In this document: in pieces, positions 31,347 through 64,000 of the stretch | Numbering within the stretch: position 1 is the stretch's first letter | Layout of the letters: each line of letters starts with the position of its first letter | NCBI RefSeq assembly: GCF_029227915.1 | Contig: NC_079876.1 | Coordinates: 31,159,828-31,223,827, forward strand | Origin: Hydractinia symbiolongicarpus | Taxonomy: Eukaryota; Cnidaria; Hydrozoa; Anthoathecata; Hydractiniidae | Direction: 5' to 3' | DNA: 64,000 nt | Notes under the pieces: generated by a model | Told to the model about the DNA's origin: nothing | The model's database searches: none | What the model saw: only the letters and a program-made list of their open reading frames with translations | Made by a program: the position numbers and the translations under genes

Positions 31347-31717
<371 letters not shown>

Positions 31718-34103
31718 AACTGGGACACGCTTATGCAAAAAGCACAATCAGGTATGCTAAAGAATTCAAAACTTAAACGTTGTCTCGAGGGATGAAATGA
31801 ATTGGTCCCGTTTTCACATTTAAAAGGACATCGACAAAACTAAAGGTATAATTATACGAGGCAAGTTCAAACAGTATAGTGGCGTTAAGTCTTGTTAATA
31901 CACACATCAGAAAGATTTACCAAGGTTGACAATATGCTTAGCATATGTTTAAAAATTGCCCTATTTGAGCCTGAATATGCTTATTAAAAACATGTAGGTA
32001 GGCCCGTTATGTTTTTAAGTTAAAGAGACGTAAGACTTTTAAATATTTACAGATATTCTACCTAAAATCGTCGTTTTTCGTCACAAAAGCGTCAAATAGC
32101 CAATGCTCCAAAGCTTATAGACTGCATAATCGCTACTTTTGTACACACATATGTCAGGTAGACTGCGTTTAAAACTTGTTAGTTGCATTATCTAGGACGA
32201 TCTCTAGGACACAAATAAATAACGTACGTCGAAGTAGTTTTTCTTGTTTGTAAAAAATATGGGGAATTCATTAAATGAATTTTGCTTCCATTCGTAACTG
32301 TGTTACATGAGTACTGCTTAGTATTACTTTAACTGTGTTACCACTACACCGCTGTCGCTCAATGATTGTACTTGGAGTACCAAAAGAAGAGACACAGCCT
32401 AAAGAAAAAAGAATCGTGTTTGCAGACACAATACTAACTCACACATGGCGAATGATTATACTTATTACATAAAACGTTGATTTGTAGCATCAACTTGGTT
32501 AGCATGCCCATACATGTATTCATATTTGTAAGCAGTAAAATCTAGTTTTTAAGTAACTTAGTACAAGTAATATATAGAGATAGTGTCTCAAATAATTGTC
32601 TAGGCATACTATCTGATCTAGTAACCTTCTTCATCTATTTGTGCAGGTTATGTGCTGGTTGCATTGTTATTGATGAAAGCACAAGTTTATTTTCAGCGTG
32701 GCTTGTTAGTTATCTTGTTTATGACCCAATCCTTTCTCATTCTCGTTTACAACCTCGTTCTCATGGCATTTTGCCTTGTTGATGAAGCTGACCACTCCTC
32801 AATAACAGCTTAGAAGCCACAAGACCCTGGGGGCGAGGTTTTCTCGTTCACTAATATTATTCAACTTTTGTCCTTTGACGGTTTCGGTACCTAATTGTCA
32901 TAATAATTTTTACTCGTCAAACTTTCTTCCTCGCACTGCTCGTCTGTGGAACTCAATACCATGCAGTCTTAGGTGCAAAATATAGGCCCCTCTCCAGTTT
33001 ATTACTTTTAAGACAGACAGAAGAATTTTTCGTATTATTATAAGAGACTTGTCAATAAGTCGTTTATACGTACTTATCGAAGTACTTCTTTTTCAAAGTC
33101 CAAATTATTATTTGGTTCAGACAATAGGTAAATATTTGCCAGCAAAGCAAGCTCATTTGGGTGAACACGGAGTTTTTAGCAGGTATTTTAATAATCGTGT
33201 TGCTTTTTGTTGGGCCTTTTCTATTTATCTTGTGGCAATAGTTATCAACGCAAATAATTAGGTTCAATATTAGATTGCTTGTGTGTAACATGTGTAGTTG
33301 TTCTGATGCAGGAACTTTTACTTGTTGGGTTATAAAGCTCATTGTTCACTATGGTTTAATTTTTTTAACTTACGTTAGCCCAAGTGAGACCGTGATAACA
33401 AAAATTAACTCACAAAATTAACCCGAAGTAACTCGCGTTACGCCACGTTAACCCTATAGCGAGAACCAAGTTTAACGAAGGACTGGGTGAAAATTCCGAG
33501 TGTTCAAAACAAGTCAGTTATACGAAGTTTCAACCCAATACCACATGCAAATGGTCAAAGAGGCATTTTCTATCTTCCAACATCGCACTTTACCATTGCA
33601 GTGCTGCGCATTTTTGAAAAGATCCTTCTTTTCTCAGGAGACAACTAATTAGGTCCTCGAAATTTAAGCTGCGCTATTTTTCTAAAGACGAAGTCTAGCC
33701 CAGTTCATCCCCGGAGCATTTTTCATGATAACTTGGTCCACAAAAGTTACGACGCTTCAACTGTGCTTTGCTTGCTTAATTTTATTTCGAGCTCTATTTA
33801 TGGCTATTTCGGAGAGCCTTCTTGTAAGGGAAAAATGAGTTCCAATTAATTTTCGACATTTTGTTTCGATTTCTTACGTCAAACCGTCAAACAAAGCAAC
33901 CTGACAAAATAATGCTGATTAATATGATTAATTGAAAGTTCATCTACGTGCCGTTGCTACCTACGACCTTTTATATACGAACTCCATTACTTATTACGCA
34001 AGATAAAATAACATCATTTAATACGCTATATCCGCCCCAATGCACATTTAAGCTGTGGCGTCACTACCTGGAGATCAGTAGCAGTGTCCAATGCTTTGTT
34101 ACC

Positions 34104-44999: not shown

Positions 45000-46209
45000 A
45001 GTTGAAGAAAATGTATTAAAAACAATTTTTCTTTTAAAGATTTGTTCTGTTTTTGTTTTTTACTTTAAACAAAGCAAGAAAAAATTGCGAAAGTGTTTTT
45101 ACGCGCAAATAACTTTTTCTTCGATTCGCAAAACTGCAAAAATTTCGCTTTTTTTGATACGCTAAAGTTTCAGTCTGCAAAAATATCTTTTGTGAGCGTA
45201 TTGTAAATTGTAATTATAACCTCCTACAAAAAATGAATGTCATTATTGACAAAAAAATCAATATGCTATCCTCTGTATAGTCTTTGTATTATTATTCCTG
45301 CTGTCTTCCTGAAAAACTAACATTCCCCTGTTACAATTTTTTTAGTTTATTTTTTGTGTGTCTTTCTCTTCGTTCATTTAAACGATTAACTTTTGAGGCG
45401 GCCACTTTGCTCCCGTTTATCTGCGGTTTTGATAACGGATGCGATAGCAGAAATGTTAAAAGTTATAACTGATCGACTAGTTTTATAAATTTCTTGACTG
45501 ACTAGTCTTAAATATTTTACGCGTACAATCAGTGGCAATAGAGGAAATAGTGCAACCACATATGGAAGCAAATAAACCGTAAACTAGCAGTGACCAATCA
45601 CATGTCAATTTTTATTATTAGTATAATAAAAAGAGTAACATTTATTTGTTAAAATAAGTCAAACAGGTTTTCAACAGTTTCATTTCGGGAAAATCGTGTT
45701 TGCATAAATATTTTGAGATCTAAGTAAACTCGACACTGAAATGAGTTTCATTTTGCCCGAAACAAGAGAATGGAATGAAATGTTTTATTTAAGCCTTGAA
45801 ATAAAACATAATGTAAAGACTCGTGTAAGAACTACAAAACGAATCAATAAGCTCAATCAATTCAATCCAACATTCCGAAGAATGGGGTATAAAAAGCGGA
45901 CCACTCAAATGGTCAAGGTGCAAGAAATTATACACACCAGATAGACGTCTATACAATGTTATCTATCTTTATTGATAATTATTTATTTATGATAAATTAT
46001 CTACCTTTTATTTAATTTGGATGTCCAATATAATGTTTAAGATATTGTTTTTGTCCTCAGTGATCACAAACTTTTCCACCGCCATAAACTCGACTTTCGT
46101 GAAGTCAGTAAATCTACAAACGTAAGCATCAAAATAATGAGAATGAAATACGGATGTGCTATGATAAATATTCACCTATATGTACACACCATCCGGATAA
46201 ACAAGCTGA

Positions 46210-51302: not shown

Positions 51303-54300
51303 GGCCTCTTGAATTGTGTTAGATTTGTTTCTTCCGAATGATTAAGAAGTTATTTTTAATTCATTTTCTGCAACTGTCATGGAGGGGCGGGTGTTAAAAG
51401 ATAAGGGGTCAGCCCTCGGCATAGAAGATATTTGTTACCAATTATATTATCTCGCTTATCTGTTTTTTTCTTTCCGTTTAATTTGACCTTATTTTCTGAT
51501 CACATTCTTATCCCATGTTTTGTAAGAATTGGTAACAAATCACGAAATATAACGAAGTCGTTCTTTAATTGATTTATCTTTGAGCCTGTTTAAAGTTTTT
51601 TGGTATATATTTTAAGTTTTTTGGTTTCGACAGGAGACTCGTTTTCGTTAAGTCAAAAAATACTTTTTACTACAACCCAATAAATTTTTTCGTCTTCTGA
51701 GGTCGAGTTAAAAGAAGAAAAGTTGTGAATAGATTTTTTATACGAGCTTTTGATAAATTTCCTTACGTTTTTATTCTTCAGTTAAAAACGTAATAAAAAC
51801 AATGCTAAAAAATTACTTTAAAAAAAGCGCATCAGCTGTTCTGATAAAGAAACGTATATGTGTATATGACAATCAGTGATAAAGAATTATTCATAATTTT
51901 AAAAAGAAATCATACAGGGATAACATTTGATTTTCAAATATTCTTCTGTTCACCATGACAGGAATATATTTGGATTTCAATTTATTTAAACATAGTAACG
52001 TTTTAATCTTTTACTAAAGGACACAATACTAACACATTCTTGTTACAACCCTCTAAAGTATGGCGTATTACTGTCCTTTTTAATCTACGTTTACATAATT
52101 CATCCAACATCATCAACATTGATGTCAACGTATTCAAATAGAATTGTTGTTTTTGTTAATATTTGATATTCTTTGGATTTGATGAGCTTTAGATAACGTC
52201 AAGAAAGGGGGCGTCATTTTTTATGAATATTAATTGAGCTTGTGTCATGACAACGATAAATGAACAGGTTCTGATTGGTGGAAATTTAGAACAAATTAAG
52301 AATGTTCTAGGCTTAGTAGTGAAAAATTTTTTCAACACAAAAAATATTTAATTGAAGTACTATTTATTGGTAATTGTTCAAAACAACACTGGTTTAATAC
52401 TTTGCATATCTTGAAAAATGAAAAAGAAGAACCATTAAATTGTTTCTCGAGCTACATGAACAACGAAAGCAATGAGAACTATTTTATTTGCAGTTAGGGC
52501 TATGATCAACGGACAACGTCTAATATTGTAAAAACCTCAAAATCAGTCACATTAAAAAAATTGTAATTTATCATGTTGCGTGCGTTTTTGTGGATCCCCT
52601 CCAATTGAGAAGTTTTCACTATAACAACTTAAATGAATTTTTCACTTTTTGATAAAACACATCGCCACCTTATATCAAATAGACCAAAAACCCTGATGAC
52701 ATATAGTAACTTATAAAGTCACAGACATAATGAAACTCCGTTCTCAGATACTTTATTTGGATACCTTTCCGAAGACAAATTGTTCAACATTTTACCTCTT
52801 TTGAGAGCGCCTCTTTTCAAAGTAGAGGTCAAGAGGAGAAACTTATATAAATCAGTGTTTTCAGCTTCGTTACCAGGGCTCTTACCGTCCAAAAGTGTGG
52901 GGAAGGAAAAACGCTCTTGGGGCTTTTTCAACTTTCTAGCATTCTAAATTTATTCTAAAAAAAATTGAGTTTTGATTTGAAAAAAACCTGGAAGGTAAAT
53001 AAAGATTTTACGAATACTAATAATAATAAACAATATTGTTAGAAGACATAATCCTCTCTCAGACTGCTTGGCAAACTTCGCAATGAATCATGGGATATGT
53101 AAAAAAATTGTGAGTGCGTGTGTGTTGTAGGCGACTAGCTTTGGCGGGGATTAAACATCATCAGAATTGTTTGAGAAGAGATCAAATAAATGTTTGAATA
53201 TTTATACATCTAAGCCTGTATTGACATATCGAGACAATGTAATTAAGTCTGGATAATTAAGTCATAGTTTAAAACAGCGGGGTTTTGTCTTATAACTAAT
53301 AAATGTATTTATTTGTCATTATAAATGTATTCACTAATTTATTTTATGTAATTTTTTATTCTTTTTCTAAAATTCGTTATAATATTAGTGAGGTAATTCG
53401 GTGATTTTTTTGACCAGTACGACAGCGAAGAACTTAGTCTATTATTTATCAGCAGTTTTATAATGTCTCCTTTGTTCTTAAAAATGATCATCAATGACCA
53501 GTGAGTCGTATTAACATTATGATTTGTCTAATGGCAACTTTCTATTCCTTTTTGTTATTATATTGTTTCTGAAAAACGAGAGATCGCCTATGATCTGGCA
53601 TTTATACTTCAGTTTATAAAATTTAAGTTCTGATTTTATTGTTGTTGTCATGGTGATGCAAAAATGCCCAGTCAAGTCGGATATTTTAGCATCCACATGT
53701 TACTTTGCTTCTCATGTTATTTATTTATTTATCTATACTTTAATCTAAAGATAACATCTTTGATAAGCGTACCTCATGAGTTGAAAGAGAGAGATTGGAC
53801 ATTAGGCCCACTTTTTCACGCAATGCCCGATATGTGATAAGGACTGGGCACCCTTTTTTCATGTGGTGCCCAACATGTGATAAGTACTCGTTGTTGGAAG
53901 TTGTTTGTTGTCCCGACGCGGTCGTTATGAACTGATCTTTTTCGGGGTTGTTTCATCACAGCTGTGTACCACACTCTCCCCTTGGGGTGTAAATTAAGTT
54001 ATGCAAAATGTTAATGAAAAAATGAAAAGTTGTTAATTTTTTTGTTTATGTTACGAAGGAGAGATAACGGTTTAAAATTATAATGTAAACATTCGTAGCT
54101 TTCTTTTAAAGGTTTGTTTGATTTGCTTGTTTATTAGTACGAACCATGCTCGGATATCATGTAAGGTGTTGTGGTTAATAAAATTATTAGCACCTTCGAA
54201 CTTGTGAGTTGGACTTGCACGCGAACTCGCTCTAATCCGATACTTGCTTCTTCATTAGAAATAAATATTAAACTATTTATTTTGCTACTAAAAATCTAAA

Positions 54301-54827
54301 TAATATTACATTATACAACCTAGTTACCATGCCCTTAAACAATACGACAATGTGTACGGCAAGTCTTTGTCGTATACATAAATAAATTGAAAACTGAATC
54401 AATGTTTTTTCTTTGTATTAGCAAGGCAAATCACAAAAAATAAGCAAGGCAAAATTTATGAGAACCATTTAGCTTTAGCGAGTTGTGATAAACCTTGTAC
54501 CGAGTTCTTTTAAGTCAGATGTGCTCTATTAATTTTGTCTCGATTGCTTTAGCATTCATATGTGCATGATTGAGTTTGCCTCGATCGGTATATCTGTTTA
54601 TTTACTCTGTGTGCTTCTGTTGTTTTAACCGTGCAAACATTTGCGCTAAAAACATACAATACAATTTCTCAATTTCGAACGTCGTATAATATCCAACATT
54701 GTTCGCATAACTTTGAAATATGATAAGGCTACACACACTGTGTGATACTTCGTCAGATAAAGAAATTGAAATGTTAAGAAGGACAACACAGAATTTTTAT
54801 CCTTAGAACAGATAAATGTTTTTGAAC

Positions 54828-57800
54828 ATGCGTTTTGGAATTTTCATATGTCTTGGTGAGTGCAAAAGATATTTTCTCTTTATATTTTGATGTGAAAAAA
54901 AAACTTGAAAAATTATTTTTAACCTTTTGAAGTGTTTATTCTGAAAATTATTTTTTTTATCTGAATTGAAGTAGAATTTCCTGAACTGTAATGTTGAGGT
55001 TACTTGAACACAAAAGCTTTTAGAAAAAGAAATTTGATATTCTCATGTTGCGAATTTACAAATTAATTATTTGGAGCTCATGTTGCCATTTCACGAAATT
55101 AAGTATTATTAATATTAAGTATATTATAAATGCATCGAAAATGCGCACGCTTTAAAAAATTTTCCCTCTTAAATAATCTTTACTGCTAGCAAGAACAGTT
55201 CAATAAGTACTCGACGGTTTAGTGTCCAACTTTGATGAAATGATTGGAGTAGAAAGACGAAACTCAAACAAACCTTCGAGCAGTTGAATTTTTGTGTTAG
55301 AACAAAAAATAAAGATTTAAAATGTATTATTAATATTTTTATTATGCACATCAAAGATCTTAATCTTTCATTTTTCAAAATTCCCTCTTTATTTGAATGA
55401 GCGTCCTCCACCGCCCTTTATTTGATTTAGCGCCCTACTTGCTCTTTTCGATTCGATACGGTGCTCATTAGTATGCTTAAGGTAGGGCGCTCTTATTTCT
55501 AAAGAGTTCAAAATCTATGCGCGCTGTATAAATAAATTTGTCCTGACACCAAAGAAATCTTCTTTAAAAAAGGTATTGAGGGAATTTGTATAACAAGACG
55601 CAGAAACACGACAGCAACAGTGTAATGGATATTATTTATTATTTCGTGAAGAACAATATTTTTCTACTTTTTCTTTTAGCATATATATTTCAAAATATTT
55701 TTTTCAGTAGAATTTCTTCCCCCTTTTCAACGAGTTTATTTACAGACAAACTTTAACGTGTGCTGAGTGAACACTTTGCGGGTAAGAAGTGAAATCTCTT
55801 TACCGGTGATTATTCGCACAGTTGTCTCGTGTGACAGACCCATAAAAAAACTGACATGCAGACTATTCACCGCTACCATCAAAGGGAGAGAACAACACGC
55901 GTGTTTCGTCATGTCGCCATTTTAAGTCACGCGCCTCGTTTATTAACATTTGAAAACAGTTTTGTTTTACAAACTACGCAAACGAAATATTTCACGACAC
56001 TTTAACTAAAAGGGGACCACTAAATTCTACGGATGCACTTCAAGTGTGTACTTCACATCAGAGTAAGAAAAGTTGATTGTTCCTTCTTTTTGTTGCACCT
56101 AGGAATGGTGCAACTCTTTGCACCATTCCTAGGTGCAACAAAAACAGGTGCTTGTGTGTAAGGCATTACACAATGCCGAGAAAAGGCGACGCGAAAGGTT
56201 TACATAAATGACACCAGCGTAGGAGAGTGAACAGGTAAAGTGTCGCAAGTTGAACAAGCATATTGTTTACCTCATTTTAAAGACGTCGTTGTGGTAACGA
56301 CCATCCTCGTCCCCAGGGTCTGATAACCATTGAACCGTTCTTACGGAGCGTCAAATAAGTCAAAAATGAAAATGTGATGGAGGGGAAGTTTTCTATATAA
56401 CTGAGATAAGCCACTACTCACATGTCGACCACATGTCCAAAATATGGAGAATACCCTGTATACTCTGACAACAGCAGTAAAGAGAGCGTTAATAAGAATT
56501 ACAAAGTACCTGGTTGAAGCCTAGCTCGAGATCAGAGTTTTTGCCACGCTTTTTTTATCCCTTTTGAATCCTTTATTGTCAGTTGTAAAAGTTAAGAAAT
56601 AAACATCTGTTTTGTAGGTTTACTTTTGTGGTTACCCGTTCATTCATTTATTTATTCATTTATTTATTTATGGATTTATTTATTTATCTGGCGCAACTGA
56701 TTCGTAGTGTAAAAAGTGTAAAACTTCGTTTTTATGAAGCAAGCAAACGCACCTCGTATGTAAACATTGTATGTTTTCAAGATTCTATTGATGATACGAT
56801 ATACGATTTGAGATGAAAAAGATTTTATCATCAGGCCTGTCATTTTTCGAGCCAGCAAGATTTTCAAATTTAAATCTTGTTAAAAATGAATTAACAGATG
56901 TTTTTTACACGTGATCATGTTGTGAAAACAAATTGGACAAACTAACAACCAATAACAAGCTTAGACGAAAGTAATGAGAATCCTCCGTGCAATGCGCATG
57001 CGCTGGTAGATAAGTAATCGTCACGATCTTGATAGTAGTCAATATTAAAGAGAATAAAGAGAGAAAAAAACCTCCGCGTGGTCTATTTCCCATTCATGAA
57101 GTTTTGTGTGTAAGACCTTAAAATCAGAGTTCTTAGGTTCCACGACAATGGTGAGGGCTGGCCCGCCAATTATACCCCTCGACCTTCTCGAAGTAATAAA
57201 AAAATAAAAAAAATTAAAATAACTAAATTAACCATGTTGAGGTTTATCCCGCTCCCCCGCTTTGGGTTAACGTATGGGTAAAGTTTTAGCTTTCACATTG
57301 GTAAGTGAGGCAGATTTGAGACACACCTTGTGTAACATATTGTCAAGTACCAACAACAGTTTTATTAAAGCACAAAGTCTCCTTTCGCAACAAATTTTAA
57401 ATTAAAAATTATATCTTGAGCTGATATAGCTATCTGATGATAGATTAAACCCTCGAATACTGTGCGGGCCGCCTACTGTGCGGACCGTTTAACTCTTTCA
57501 TCTGATCGTTTTATATTTTGACTCATTTTTTCTCGAAATAATTTCAAACGTCTTTGCGCAATTTCTAACAACCTATAAATTCACCACATTAAACTTTGAA
57601 AAAACAAACTCTTTCGAAGTTTATAAAACTTTATTTTTAGCTAAGAAGGTTCAGAATTCTTAAAGGTGTCATACCACAAGCCGTCATGCTGTACTGATAT
57701 ATTAATAAAGTACTTTTTTACCCTTATAATAAATCCATGGTAGTGCGTAAGTAGCTACTCACAGCTACAACATCGGTTCACGGCCATTGAAATACACAGA

Positions 57801-60800
57801 CGTACGCGAGCATTAGTAATATAGACTATTCGTTAGCCCGTGGAAGGAACTCTTGTCACAACAAAGTAGATAAACTATATCCCGTTTGCTATTTCGTGTG
57901 TCTGTAGCACGAAACTTTTTTTGTGCACACACAGAGTACGAATATTAATATAAGAGATTCTCTAATACTTTTTAACAACATTTTTCTTCTCAGGGTTAAG
58001 CGGTTTAGAAATATATCTTCGTGTTCTTTTTACCACATTGTGAAAAACGTCTGCAGTAAATTTCGTGCAAGTCATTAAATCGCACTTATTTTGCGGTGTG
58101 TCTTAATGAGGTGGGTGGGGACTTTTATCTCCCACGTTTGCTCTCACTTTACACGCGAAGCCCAGTAATGAAATTGAAAAAATATTTTTCTATAGGATAA
58201 AAAAGCTTTAAGCTAGATCATATTGTCTGTTTTGTTATCAAAAACGAAGCGTGTTTCATCTCTAATTTTCAAATGCTTTTAGATTCGTAAGGACTAATCA
58301 CACCTATAATGGCTTCTTTGCAGCTTCGTTCATGCTGCATTAATGGAGGCGTCTATTTTAGTGAATAAGGGCGGTCTGTTCATTTGAACAGACTCTTGTT
58401 GTAGACACAAACTCATGCCACAATGAAAGCTTTTGTAAACAAACTCATGCCATAATGGCAGCTTTTGTAAACAAACTCATGCCATAATGGCAGCTTTTGT
58501 AAATAAACAGAATCTGCAATGTTTAAACAACGACAATACTCTACAGTGAAGGATCAACTTTCTTATTTTGCATCTTGCTGTTCTGGCAGTTGACTGTGTG
58601 TAAATGACGACATAAATTGATCTTGCATTGAAATTCTCTATTTTTTTATTTTTCCAGTATTTACTTCTGACGTCGTTTGTCTAAATGTAGCTAAACTTTA
58701 AAAATAATGATAAAAATTATTGTGGAGTTCTACCGGTTACGAATTCTGTTGAAGCTTAGGCAAATGTTCTATTTATAAACTCAGCAGAGAAAGTTTGCCT
58801 TTTTTATTATAGCTATATAAACGACACTTTTCGCCTGAAATTTTTCGTCAGTTAAAATTTTTTGTCAATCTGTAACACTTGATAAGCAACGGGAATGATG
58901 TACGGTGAACGCACACATCGATTCGTGTTCGATTCATGTTCGATTCATGTTCGATTCGTGTACGTAAAACTCGATGTAAATTTTATTGTACACATTTGGT
59001 TTAAAGAAAAATAAAGAAAGTAAAATAAAAATTATGTCGCCGATTAACAGAAAATATATTTTATTTAGTTCTGCTGTTGCTGACTGTGCGGGCATCTGCA
59101 GGCAACTTTTATGACAAGCTATCATCAAGGTAAGTTCGATTTCTTGCGACACCACCGTTTGATGTAGTCGAGACGAAATGACTTTGGCGTCTAAAATAGT
59201 CGAGACGAAATGACTTTGGCGTCTAAAATGATCGAGACGAAATGACTTTGACGTTTGATATAGTCGAAATGAAATGATTTTGACGTTTGGTATAGTCGAA
59301 ATGAAATGATTTTGACGTTTGGTATAGTCGAAATGAAATGATTTTGACGTTTGATATAGTCGAAATGAAATGATTTTGACGTTTGATATAGTCGAAATGA
59401 AATGATTTTGACGTTTGGTATAGTCGAAATGAAATGATTTTGACGTTTGATATAGTCGAAATGAAATGATTTTGACGTTTGAAATAGTCGAAATGAAATG
59501 ATACATTAAACAAATAGGATGATGTAAAAATTACTGAAGCTTGATAACAAATTTGTCTTTGATGATTGCGCCACAATTGGCGTTTGTACCGCCCCGTTTT
59601 GTCCATTTTTAACGTTCTTTTACAAAAGAGTGTGTGCCCATCTCTAATTAGCAGACATCATCAGTGGTAAAAGATTTGTCCACTAATTAATGTTTCTGCT
59701 AATTGATTGTCCATTTATCAAAAAGATTAATATAAATGTTTGACTATATTTTTGTTCTTGTTCGTTAATTAGAAGTTTCCTCTAACTGGGGTGTCCTTTA
59801 ATTAGAGATTCCACTGGATAGCTTATATCAATATATCTACCCTCCATCCCTGAGATTCTTATTTTTATGATTTCTTGTCATTTCATCGAAAAGGTGCAAA
59901 AGCTCTAAAATATAAAGTGAAATGTACCAATATTTTTTTTAACTCTTCAGCTCCAAACATGGTAGCTGCCAGCTCTACAATGGAACTGTATGCTCAAGAT
60001 ATCTTGCTGGCAAAATTATCTATTTACAAGAGGGAAAATCTGTTGAACATATAGAGAAGAGATTGACTCGTTGGTTCAAAAAAAGTAAGTTTTGTGTTTC
60101 GTCGTACTGTTGGAAGGATACGTATGAGACATATGTACAAAACAATATAATAAGGCAACAGACACGTACACATGCTAAACCTTCTGCCATATGTTAACTT
60201 CTGCCTACTCCTCAACAACGTTCCCTGGATTCTCTAATATTAGGTAGCTTAATTTACCAAAAACAGTGCATAACGAAATCTACCATTTTTAGATCGGAAG
60301 ACACGTCAGATTGGTCGAGAATGCTGGCCGCATGCGGAAGCATTAACCTGTATGCACTTCTACCCAGAATGCAACATAGCACAAAATGCACCAATCAAGA
60401 CAACGTTATGCTCTTCGCATTGCTCATTTTTGAAACAAGGCATCTGCAAAGGAGAATTTAAACGAGCAAAACATTCATCGTATCTTCAGAGGTTTATTCC
60501 TCTCTGCGAAGAAGTGTCTTTTATTGAAGATTCGAAAGGAGAGTTTTGTTTCTTTCTACCCACATTCGATTTGAAAAAAGGTGAGCTGGTCTTTGAATTG
60601 TAGTTTTAATTTTGTTTATTTATTTCACAGTATGTTTCTTTGGTATACCATCTTGCCCTTTTCCACTCCTATCCAACGCCCGACCTTTTTACGCCATTAG
60701 TCACTGACGTTATTTTATAAATATCTACATTAAACTCTCATAAATATATACATTTAGGAATTGACCAATTTAACACCGCGATGTAAAAATCTACTCTCAG

Positions 60801-63800
60801 AATGGTCAATACGGTTATAGACGAGTTAAGGGTCGTTGTCCTGAATACTTAGGTATAATTAAAACATTTTCTTATTCAAGGTCCAGTTATATATGCAGAG
60901 AAAAAGAAAAGGTTCTACAGCACAGAGGGAAAGACAGCAGAGTTAAAATGCATCTTTGGAATTAAAAACTTTGTATGGACCAAAGAGACAAGCATGATGA
61001 TAACAGAAGGCACCTGGTATAGACATAACAAAAGAGTGATTGGAAACAAAAGAATGCGAACAAGAACAAGACAGAAAGGGAAAGCGAGGTAAAAAAATAT
61101 GTTATTTCGTAACTGTTCAATTTCCTTACTAACCTTGATTAAAGAAACCCACCCCGACTAAAAATGAAAAGTAAGAAATTCAAATTAACCCTATCTTAAT
61201 TTCTTTATAAATGTTTGTACTCTTTGTTTATTAGACTCTTTATGTTGTTAAAAATTCATAAAGTCAGTCGAAAAGATCGCGGCAACTATCGCTGCATGAT
61301 CACTTTCGGTAACAAAACAGTTCGTGGGCATGCACAGTTGATTGTGAACAATCGAGAGGTTGTTGTTCGACCAATCAAAGGAAAGTGTACGTCTTACAAC
61401 GGTGGAGTGTGCTCGGCTTATTTCAACACCGAGGAAGGAAATAACGTGGTTTACGAGGAAACAATGAACCCGATACATCTAGTGAACACGCAGTTAGAAG
61501 AATTTATAAAGAAGCTAAAGAGCTCAAAAGAGGTATCTGAAAGGTAAGAAACTTACAATTTTAAAATAGTTACGAAATCAGTGGTAGACTTTTTAATTTA
61601 ATGGCTTACACAAAATTCAATGTTTTGATAATGGGTTGAAAACAATGAATTTTTACGCTCATTCCTGTATAGAGAAAGACCACAGGATTTAAATAAATCT
61701 ACTTGAAGTAACGAAATATTTAAAATTAAAAAAAAGAGATTTCGGTATCTTTTAGATCTTTTTTAAAATTCGTATGAATTTCAATAATAGCCAATGTTCC
61801 CACTTTTTACCTATACTGTCATACTATGCTCCAGCTGTCTAAGAAAGATTGCTTGTTTTTTCAGGTGCAAAGAATTCGGCCAAGCTGTTCTCTGTTACAA
61901 CAAGTTTAAAAAATGTCACAACGAAACATTGAAGGTTACACCAAGCCTTTGCCGAAATGATTGTCACTTATTCAGAAACAAATACTGTAAAAAGGAACTG
62001 GAGTTGATCAGTCAGGAAAAAGCTATTTTGGCGATGTATTTTCCCGATTGTGATGTCTTACCTGAACCAAATCCAGACTGTATTCCTTTATCGAGTAAGC
62101 ATGACAATTCACACTCTTCTAGAGGCGTTACGTGTGCAATATTTCGGCTGCTTCTTCATGTCACTAACACTACCTGATATTTAAAAACATATTTTAAAAT
62201 TTTCTTTAAGAAATTTTATTAAAATCTATTCGAATTTGAGTATTTTTAAGAATTTGATGTCGGGACATAAAATTCTCACAGATGTTGAATTTTATTCAAA
62301 CTTTTTGATTTAGACAATCCAACAATTACAAAGAAGAACAGCATCCATAATGATGTGACTGGTAAGCTGTGGATAAACGTTATCGAATTTGCCCCAAAAT
62401 TTGAAACATTAATAATAGCAAATATTAAAACAGAATGACCAATCAATTTAAAGTCCATATTAATAAACGTCCCTGTAAAGGTGTAAGTAAAAACTTAATT
62501 AAATGTCAACAATAAAGCATTACTTTCTTCTTATTAAATAGAAATGCATTGCTACGACGAAGACTCGCCAACAAATTATCTAGGTTCCGTTTCCATGACA
62601 CAAACCGGACTATTATGCGACAATTGGCGTCATTACCCTGGCTACACCGACATTGACCACGACTACTGTCGAAACTTTGGCGAAAACCGTCCATGGTGTT
62701 TTGCTAATGGAAAGAAAAAATACTGCAGCATAAAATCGTGTCGTCCGACATGCTATAAAAACCGCGGCGATGATTATTACGGCAAGGTCTCGTATTCGAA
62801 GTCGGGGAAAAAATGTTTGCCGTGGAATCGTGTCGCTGAAGACTTCTTGCAAAGCAATATTGACCATTCCTACTGTCGGAATTTTGAGAATGACATGGAA
62901 GCTCCGTGGTGTTATGTTAATTATCAAAAGACAAGAGAACTGTGCGACATACCAAAATGTGTTTCGAAAGGTATATAACTGATATATTTTCTTCTGGCAG
63001 AGTTTAAGTTTTAATAAAAATTAAGAATTACCTTGCTTTTTCTCCAAAGAGAGGGATGAAACATTGAAACTAAGCTGTCTGTCTCATCCCAGAGATCTCC
63101 AAAATGGAAATCTTTGCACCAATTTTTTTGTGGTGGCAAAATAGGATACACACCAAACCAAATGTTACTTGAGAAAATATGCTTAAACTTTTAATTGCTT
63201 AATAAAATAAATTCAGTACTAAATTTACTTCGCGTAGCCAACAGTTGCCATATTTTTTGAAAAGCAATTGTCCACTACCTATAATTTTTTCGGTTTTAGT
63301 TCAAAAATCAAACACTTCCGTTTCACTTGTGGTTTACATAGTACCAGCTATCGTTGGCGCAACTGCCGTCCTGTTTTCGCTGTTCCTGTTTATATTCTAT
63401 ATGAAAAACAAAAAGCTTTTAAAGATGAAGAAGTCAAACGAACTAATGATATGTGAAAGTGAAACAATGGATACACCAGGGGTAAACACACTGTCCACAA
63501 CAGGAAGTGTCGAATATAAAAAAGAATCACCCACGATGGAGTGTATGGAATTATTGGAAGCTCCTCCGGTGGAACACAAAGCTGCTAATGGAAATAAGAA
63601 GGTAAAGAGCGGAGATTTTTGCAAAGTTGTAGGATGCGGGATTTTTTTGAAATTGTAAGGCAGATTTCAGTGGCAAGAACCTAAACTTTAATTTTAAAGG
63701 CCAGAACTAACTTTACGAGACCGAAAATGGTAATTCATGCCGTTTAGATTCGCAGAAAAAAATGAAAAATTCTTTCCGGCGTATTGTTTTTGTTGTTTTT

Positions 63801-64000
63801 TAACTAACCTTTTTTCATTAATAAAAGTGCTTATATAACTTATAGTTCCAAAGCGTTCCTGAAGTAAAAGAATCGCGTTTTGCAAACTTGGTGAAAATTG
63901 GTGATTGTAAACTTGGGCAGCTATGGCAAGGTGAATTTGTGGAAACTAAAAACAAAATGATACCGATTGTGATGAAGAGAATCAAAGCAGAAACACGTGC
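54828..64000 (+). CDS. ROR/MuSK-related receptor tyrosine kinase, 5' part (Fz-Ig-Fz-Kringle-Kringle-TM-kinase)
   Basis: Exons 54828-54855, 59069-59129, 59951-60084, 60293-60580, 60881-61088, 61235-61543, 61865-62094, 62314-62361, 62542-62970, 63300-63601 and 63846 onward join in consistent phases to about 730 codons, cut by the window end. Signal peptide: MRFGIFICLVLLLLTVRASA, cleaved before GNFYDK. Residues about 33-165: Frizzled-type domain with ten cysteines (GSCQLYNGTVCSRY ... CSSHCSFLKQGIC). About 172-275: Ig domain (LKCIFG, Trp, DRGNYRCMI). About 285-415: second ten-cysteine Frizzled-type domain (GKCTSYNGGVCSAY ... CRNDCHLFRNKYC). About 437-575: two complete kringles in one exon, each with six cysteines (DYCRNF/PWCF; SYCRNF/PWCY). 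TM at about 585-612. The kinase begins with a ROR-like loop, IGDCKLGQLWQGEF, and the ATP-binding lysine in PIVMKRIK. ROR proteins are Wnt-binding receptors and MuSK organises synapses. The ligand here is unknown. The catalytic loop lies outside the window, so activity cannot be judged. Confidence 0.88.
56091..56140. repeat. perfect 23-bp-arm hairpin in intron 1 of the receptor
   Basis: TGTTGCACCTAGGAATGGTG plus CAA (56091-56113) and its exact reverse complement (56118-56140) are separated only by CTCT. It is an almost closed hairpin, 50 bp long. Confidence 0.9.
56640..56688. repeat. ATTT/ATTC microsatellite
   Basis: CATT/TATT tetranucleotides with interruptions inside intron 1 of the receptor model. 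Confidence 0.7.
57818..57965. repeat. dispersed repeat family Y, copy 3
   Basis: ACTATTCGTTAGCCCGTGGA at the start and CACACACAGAGTACGAATAT near the end match the layout of the copy at 46858-47064, with more decay. TAATATA words flank both sides. Confidence 0.5.
58405..58508. repeat. 32-bp tandem repeat, three copies
   Basis: CAAACTCATGCCATAATGGC plus AGCTTTTGTAAA repeated three times with few changes, in intron 1 of the receptor gene. Confidence 0.85.
58918..58962. repeat. short tandem repeat GTTCGATTCAT
   Basis: Four copies of an 11-bp unit, GATTCATGTTC and variants, about 100 bases before exon 2 of the receptor. Confidence 0.8.
59165..59503. repeat. 32-bp minisatellite, about 11 units, in receptor intron 2
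   Basis: The unit TAGTCGAAATGAAATGATTT plus TGACGTTTGATA recurs every 32 bp. The first three units are a variant class (GAGACGAAATGACTTTGGCG). The minus strand is open in more than one frame because 32 is not a multiple of three, giving a spurious 190-codon frame with a 32-residue period. It begins about 35 bases after the donor of the signal-peptide exon. Confidence 0.95.

Follow-up and report, generated by a model that had tools for sequence, protein, structure and literature searches.

The 3′ end of a 64,000-nucleotide stretch of contig NC_079876.1 of the hydrozoan Hydractinia symbiolongicarpus (C2:31159828-31223827; the whole stretch is referred to below as the window) carries a predicted gene for a receptor with two Frizzled-type (Fz) domains, one Ig domain, two kringles (Kr1 and Kr2), a transmembrane (TM) helix, and a kinase domain that has probably lost catalysis. 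Its exons were sought among the open reading frames of window positions 50-64 kb and in the sequence itself, and were then joined in silico. Nine forward-strand exons (59951-63998+, Table 1) join into a single open frame, of which the exon parts within the window encode 700 residues; base 59951 completes a codon begun in an upstream exon, and the Fz1 frame used begins at 59952. According to the exon-joining script, all eight junctions are GT/AG and in phase, with donors of 0.2-7.8 bits on our own matrix, and the window contains no N bases in 54000-64000. By phase alone, eight agreements would have a chance of (1/3)^8, or about 0.00015, which is to be read as a consistency check and not as a probability because the frames were considered when the exon ends were picked. 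The window ends within the glycine loop, inside the kinase exon, and the rest is found in the next 20 kb of the same contig, where the kinase domain is completed in one exon and a single frame with its stop (L009:174-1040). The 328-base overlap between the window and this neighbouring stretch is identical, and the frame stays open through the kinase exon to a total of 937 residues. That the Fz-Ig-Fz-Kr-Kr-TM-kinase exons form one gene is thus a supported prediction.

Table 1. Exons of the predicted receptor gene (window positions) and other kinase or Fz-kringle loci of the same genome.
Feature	Position	Strand	Splice sites and phase	Remarks
Signal-peptide exon of the initial annotation (MRFGIFICL...)	54828..54855	+	donor 4.7 bits (own matrix)	doubtful, outside the model
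Fz1, first half	59951..60084	+	AG before 59951, GTAAGT after 60084	joined Fz1 36.6 Pfam bits (cut-off 32.1)
Fz1, second half	60293..60580	+	phase 1 in and out; donor GTGAGC	unspliced, runs to a stop at 60601
Ig domain, first half	60881..61088	+	phase 1 in, 2 out	joined Ig_3 30.6 bits (cut-off 30)
Ig second half and Fz2 first half, single exon	61235..61543	+	phase 2 in and out	
Fz2, second half	61865..62094	+		joined Fz2 36.1 Pfam bits (cut-off 32.1)
Linker exon	62314..62361	+	AG/GT, phase 1-1	16 residues
Kr1 and Kr2, single exon	62542..62970	+	phase 1-1	Pfam Kringle 74.6 bits (cut-off 34.3; exon alone), 2 stretches; 12 cysteines
TM helix and juxtamembrane segment	63300..63601	+		top hydrophobic 19-mer IVPAIVGATAVLFSLFLFI, mean 2.52; NPXY absent
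Kinase exon, start	63846..64000	+	phase 0 acceptor	288-residue frame, with the stop in the whole exon C2:31223673-31224539
Ordinary ROR-type gene	C2, about 30045.6-30055.9 kb	minus		Ig-Fz-Kr-TM-kinase-long tail; 1.2 Mb from the window gene
Third Fz-kinase	C6:13.034-13.038 Mb (L044)			Fz exon 35.8 bits, TM exon, kinase exons
Fz-kringle locus	C11:20.45 Mb (20447.5-20452.5 kb)			kringle 62.8, hydrophobic stretch, and a pair of Fz-like stretches of 29.6 and 20.8 bits, neither reaching the cut-off
Fz-kringle locus	C11:26.79 Mb (26792.2-26795.7 kb)			Fz-like exon 27.4 bits, kringle, and TSP1-like repeat in a row
Fz-kringle locus	C3:28.04 Mb			two kringle exons and two half exons resembling Fz, of which one was scanned (23.7)

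With regard to the ectodomain, the initial annotation had read the order Fz-Ig-Fz-Kr-Kr-TM, with ten-cysteine Fz domains and two six-cysteine kringles in one exon, and this order was borne out on the forward strand at the same places, including the borders of the first Fz (59951-60580). All 20 Fz cysteines (ten each in Fz1 and Fz2) and all 12 kringle cysteines (six each) are present, the Fz spacings being 7-40-8-6-12-3-7-19-13 in Fz1 and 7-44-8-6-11-3-7-20-9 in Fz2. Cut out as joined domains, Fz1, Fz2, and Ig pass their Pfam cut-offs (Table 1; for Ig also I-set, 25.9 bits against 23.7), whereas none of the lone Fz and Ig exons does so (Fz 28.2 and 22.7; Ig_3 15.3), and the first-half exons of Fz1 and Ig alone match neither Fz nor Ig. 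It is therefore the joins that make the domains, which provides a more independent check of the model than the phases. In the whole 700-residue protein, Fz reaches 46.1 bits in two stretches and the Ig families fall under the cut-off (Ig_3 23.9 against 30; I-set 19.1), so that the Ig call is the weakest of the domain calls. A third Fz was also sought in the window with a profile that combined Fz1 and Fz2 with four PDB sequences, and nothing else above 9 bits was found in the six-frame open stretches of at least 20 codons; the four known exons score 51-110 bits by construction, two of the six sequences being their own.

The class of these domains was examined with phmmer against PDB chain sequences (E up to 10). 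All five matches of Fz1, and five of the seven of Fz2, are to ROR2, MuSK, or fly Ror2 (chain 7me4); the remaining two of Fz2 are yeast chains that match only weakly, with E of 0.09 and 0.29. Frizzled or Smoothened chains are absent from the Fz1 and Fz2 matches at this threshold; such structures exist in the PDB, e.g., 4F0A, 1IJY, and 5L7D (PMC11219042). Kr2 matches the kringles of ROR1 (chain 5z55, 6e-15, one stretch) and ROR2 (chain 9fse, 8e-25, two stretches). For Kr1, plasminogen and HGF rank on top because the scores of several kringles per chain add up; among the single-kringle chains listed, ROR1 is the best (29.1 bits), followed by a plasminogen kringle (27.6 bits). The Ig-Fz-kringle-TM order of ROR is found as an inner block, which Fz1 precedes and in which the kringle is present twice. 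By its ectodomain, the predicted receptor is supported as a member of the ROR/MuSK class, not as a ROR. The exon layout that it shares with the ROR-type gene described below, i.e., a phase 1-1 kringle exon and a one-exon kinase behind a phase-0 intron, also speaks for this class.

A lineage-specific expansion of a ROR/MuSK-class receptor with duplicated domains had been proposed for this locus. One gene of that class by ectodomain stands, but the word "duplicated" does not hold for a recent event. A recent tandem duplication of one Fz was rejected, since Fz1 and Fz2 are only 22% identical to each other (25% and 23%, respectively, to human ROR2) and the introns inside them lie at different places and have different phases (phase 1 versus phase 2). 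In three Fz trees (6, 8, and 9 sequences), Fz1 stands apart from Fz2, and Fz2 lies near MuSK and fly Ror2 at 45-72%; support at the nodes near Fz1 and Fz2 is 44-72%, nor does human ROR2 group with fly Ror2, so that these trees do not reveal in which order the events took place. Between Kr1 and Kr2, identity is 35% by BLAST and 39% in the alignment, and an unrooted tree of seven kringles sets the two apart from the remaining five at 81%.

The kinase exon matches PK_Tyr_Ser-Thr of Pfam with 195.3 bits, and its motifs were aligned with those of eight other kinases. The glycine loop reads GDCKLG, against GXGXXG in active kinases, and fits the GXCXXG that ROR1 alone has among eight human receptor pseudokinases (PMC13259870). 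The ROR-like glycine loop of the initial annotation is thereby upheld, with the reservation that GXCXXG is not a family-wide ROR mark, because ROR2 and the ROR-type gene of the same genome are without it. IVMK replaces VAIK, the Lys being kept and Ala changed to Met; the alpha-C Glu is kept as well, and the catalytic loop reads HKDLAARN, with the HKD (HKDXXXXN) that is reported for PTK7, ROR1, ROR2, RYK, and STYK1 (PMC13259870). KSE takes the place of DFG in a column that is ungapped from the catalytic loop to the activation-loop tyrosine, as it also is when phmmer aligns the domain with ROR1 and PTK7. In addition, YPEDYV is found for YxxDYY, SPE for APE, and DIYMMG for DVWSFG. A kinase fold that has lost catalytic motifs, which is the mark of receptor tyrosine pseudokinases, is thus seen here. 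In STYK1, a missing DFG is expected to preclude Mg binding (PMC13259870). The lost DFG and this parallel make the loss of catalysis a strong inference, though not a measurement, and the domain is probably a catalytically dead pseudokinase, so that the term "tyrosine kinase" used earlier would not describe a working enzyme.

Relatives of the gene were searched for in its own genome (480.9 Mb in 76 contigs, the C2 contig being 40 Mb). An ordinary ROR-type gene was found elsewhere on the same chromosome, which answers the possibility, raised in the initial annotation, that the locus is an ordinary single-Fz ROR with extra exons. An Ig-like half exon and a TM segment are recognizable in it by eye, and it further comprises one Fz, which scores 39.3 bits when joined, a single kringle, a kinase, and a tail of about 230 residues past the kinase; as in the window gene, the kringle exon has phase 1-1 and the kinase occupies one exon that starts in phase 0. 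Its kinase has DFS where DFG is expected and reads HKDLAVRN. Among the best 60 of 831 PDB rows, this kinase matches ROR2 best (247.7) and then MuSK (242.8), with TrkC and TrkA level with or above ROR1, and in two kinase trees it joins human ROR1/2 at only 56% and 45%; since the matches are mixed and the support is low, the name ROR-type is owed to the architecture no less than to the kinase. On C6, the third Fz-kinase has its Fz match and kinase-exon match 3 kb apart, a juxtamembrane segment that is MuSK-like (NPLMELL...YPLDCVEYIRDLGEGQFGKVFQG), and a kinase that is split by introns, retains intact motifs (VAVK, HRDLATRN, DFG, YHSDYY), and groups with ROR/MuSK at 96% in a kinase tree. A kringle was seen neither in the 9 kb examined there nor at this locus in the own-genome Kringle profile search. 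The presence of both genes in the same genome marks the window gene as a separate, divergent gene. Its double-kringle exon matches 45 places, itself included, and none of the 44 further matches starts before residue 54, so that they leave out most of Kr1; thus, no second double-kringle exon was found by this search.

MuSK has Ig domains and, in non-mammals, a kringle, and a juxtamembrane NPXY is its mark. The window receptor resembles MuSK and the C6 Fz-kinase in placing an Fz before the TM helix and kinase, and its Fz2 is 24-30% identical to the MuSK Fz, depending on the alignment. Unlike MuSK, it has one Ig domain and two Fz and is without the juxtamembrane NPXY; unlike both MuSK and the C6 kinase, in which GXGXXG, HRD, and DFG are kept, it has GDCKLG, HKD, and KSE, and unlike the latter its kinase is not split. 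With ROR1, ROR2, and the ROR-type gene it shares the order of Ig, Fz, kringle, TM, and kinase and a cysteine-rich domain (CRD) of ROR/MuSK type. It differs from ROR in the extra Fz before the Ig domain and the extra kringle, in a kinase that the trees do not place in the ROR clade and that has IVMK and neither DFG nor DLG, and in being almost tailless, human ROR having a long Pro-rich tail (PMC13259870). The likeness to PTK7 (CCK4) lies in a dead kinase with HKD, and PTK7 is also its neighbour in the kinase trees described below; the PTK7 ectodomain, however, consists of seven Ig domains (PMC13259870), as opposed to one Ig, two Fz, and two kringles here.

The reading that we favour, with confidence a little above even, is that a single gene, separate from the ordinary ROR-type gene, encodes a type-I Fz-Ig-Fz-Kr-Kr-TM-pseudokinase receptor whose ectodomain assigns it to the ROR/MuSK class and which would serve as a non-catalytic Wnt co-receptor scaffold. 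Briefly, the receptor would reach the cell surface with the help of a presumed signal peptide, and one or both of the Fz-type CRDs would take part in binding a Wnt-type ligand or a partner receptor, with Fz2 and Kr1-Kr2 occupying the place of CRD-Kr in ROR. The kinase domain would transfer no phosphate and would act as a scaffold or dimer partner, and the signal may pass via the ordinary ROR, a Frizzled, or another partner. This scheme is modelled on the human Wnt co-receptor pseudokinases ROR1/2, PTK7, and RYK. It was reported that WNT5A signalling requires the ROR2 CRD, which is also minimally sufficient for it, and that ROR2 minus its intracellular region is still able to signal (PMC11219042). 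The extra Fz could be a second docking site and would more probably help to assemble partners than bind another lipid-bound Wnt, because the CRDs of human ROR2 and MuSK have no open lipid groove (PMC11219042).

Several observations weigh against this reading. In a tree of nine kinases, the window kinase has a branch of 1.87 substitutions per site and lies next to PTK7 at 63%, outside ROR and MuSK, which are together at 90%; when the C6 kinase is added, the branch is 1.92, the PTK7 node 52%, and the ROR/MuSK/C2/C6 group at 96% is without the window kinase. The PTK7 and FGFR3 rows of these trees lack the glycine loop, being taken from alignments. With so long a branch, membership in ROR is neither proved nor excluded, but the kinase trees do not support it. 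In the PDB, the single-copy kinases PTK7 (131.9), ROR1 (129.8), FGFR3, and FAK score level among the best 60 of 1101 matches; an EGFR chain ranks first there with two copies counted. Within its own genome, the kinase exon matches 57 places at E up to 1e-5, where the best other kinase is that of the ROR-type gene (C2:30046351-30047178, 117.3 bits, 29% identity) and the next, an SH2 kinase, is only 4.5 bits behind (112.8 bits); moreover, kinases split by introns rank too low because this search scores exon by exon. On the ligand side, ROR1 is said to use a hydrophobic pocket (PMC13259870), which leaves room for lipid-dependent Wnt binding. Finally, neither the 5′ exon nor a signal peptide was found in a search of 45-59.9 kb. 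The matches of the kinase that come next in its own genome, at C8:6539162 and C8:6545261, were rejected as receptor relatives, being SH2 kinases.

The gene start had been placed at 54828. An exon there was rejected as the direct neighbour of the Fz1 exon, as its donor leaves phase 1 and 59951 needs phase 2; hence the chain lacks one exon or more, or the gene starts elsewhere. Ten ATG-to-donor candidates of phase 2 occur in the searched interval, and the most signal peptide-like begins at 46033, 14 kb upstream, with a donor of 2.5 bits that falls inside the range of those used. It is a possible 5′ exon, backed by this donor and its signal-peptide likeness and by nothing beyond them. Just 5′ of the Fz1 exon, a short tandem repeat (59150-59510; units like GATTTTGACGTTTGGTATAGTCGAAATGAAAT, by eye) is open in several minus frames. 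Downstream of Fz1, retention of the intron would end the frame within 8 codons (60581-60603), which makes an Fz-only isoform possible.

Tentatively, the protein may be a dedicated two-CRD co-receptor whose chain joins two ligands or two partners, e.g., a Frizzled and a ROR that carries Wnt, with the kinase fold reduced to a docking surface; it would then represent a Wnt-receptor line of its own outside ROR, MuSK, PTK7, and RYK, with a ROR/MuSK-type ectodomain carried on a kinase that none of the trees groups with ROR or MuSK. The main rival, which we regard as rather unlikely, keeps the same architecture and makes the protein a negative regulator, either decoy or dominant-negative, in which the two CRDs capture Wnt or pair with ROR or Frizzled and thereby block the signal. 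The missing DFG would suit this, as would a frame that ends about 20 residues past the last kinase match, against the tail of about 230 residues in the ROR-type gene; however, a membrane-anchored kinase fold that has been kept free of stops, with HKD and the alpha-C Glu, is more than a decoy requires.

It is unlikely, in our judgement, that the ectodomain acts outside Wnt biology and binds another ligand (matrix, another cell, or itself). MuSK, with agrin/LRP4, offers a precedent for a non-Wnt ligand. The own-genome profiles match at least 50 places for Kringle (47 over the cut-off) and at least 30 for Fz (25 over the cut-off), all as lower bounds, and the Fz search misses split domains, because only the second-half exon of Fz1 was matched in the window, under the cut-off. 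Besides the window, four loci have Fz and kringle matches on one strand within 7 kb, and with the window protein as query a kinase was found, in 30 kb at each, only at the ROR-type locus. The other three (C3:28.04, C11:20.45, and C11:26.79 Mb) resemble the window gene in having Fz-type stretches followed by a kringle, and differ from it in a single kringle per exon. One of them combines two Fz-like stretches with a hydrophobic segment, possibly another two-Fz protein, and another has a TSP1-like repeat, which indicates that the Fz-kringle module serves other proteins of this genome; nevertheless, nothing points to any particular ligand. Kringle exons with identical scores also occur at C2:6035403, 6066545, and 11613250 and in pairs on C13, as recent copies or a repeated gene family.

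A very improbable alternative is that the Fz1 exons belong to a separate small gene for a secreted Fz protein and that the receptor proper is Ig-Fz-Kr-Kr. In its favour, an intron-retaining transcript would yield a short Fz protein through the stop at 60601, the 5′ exon of the receptor has not been located, and two ATTAAA (60729 and 60858) lie between the Fz1 and Ig exons. Against it, the junction 60580/60881 is GT/AG in phase 1/1 across an intron of 300 bp, with the best donor of the eight used (7.8 bits), and no AATAAA is present in 60581-60880; the three ATGs in this interval open frames that all soon stop, and none of the ten GT in those frames leaves the phase 1 that the Ig exon needs. 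Hardly credible is a non-functional gene or an assembly error, which the degenerate kinase might suggest and which is opposed by 937 open codons, the full sets of Fz and kringle cysteines, and a single 40 Mb contig without N bases around the gene.

Elsewhere in the window, four genes were recognized by eye, presumably a NASP-like gene at 2-5.9 kb (minus strand), a phosphoglucomutase-like gene at 12-19 kb (plus), an EML-like WD-repeat gene at 22-28 kb (minus), and a multi-TM, rolling-stone-like gene at 38.1-38.8 kb (plus). A long AT-rich simple repeat at 31380-31730 translates into alternating Ile and Tyr whichever frame is used.

As the initial annotation had supposed, no description of an Fz-Ig-Fz-Kr-Kr receptor with a kinase was found in the literature searched, whose scope excluded most subscription journals and all preprints. 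The parts are known; what is new, as predicted from the sequence, is the combination of domains with a dead kinase. ROR2 is mentioned in the sea anemone Nematostella (PMC12549020), and the words ROR, RYK, and PTK7 are absent from PMC12221298. PMC4812194 refers to Sossin for the view that Trk/MuSK/Ror had a Frizzled/kringle precursor when Eumetazoa arose, and in PMC8662651 the CRD-FZ ectodomain is argued to be older than the family-specific kinase motifs, those of Ror and Musk being dated to bilaterians. If the favoured scaffold receptor is expressed as modelled, this animal would possess a two-Fz, two-kringle receptor with a DFG-less kinase in addition to its ordinary ROR-type gene and an intact Fz-kinase, which would bear on whether ROR-type CRDs bind the Wnt lipid or serve as assembly sites, and on how the Fz-kringle kinases diversified. 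Provided that the host branches early, a ROR/MuSK-type ectodomain on an unplaced kinase would fit the ectodomain-first argument (PMC8662651), and the C2 and C6 kinases of the same genome, placed in the ROR/MuSK group at 96%, would oppose the bilaterian-late date of the motifs.

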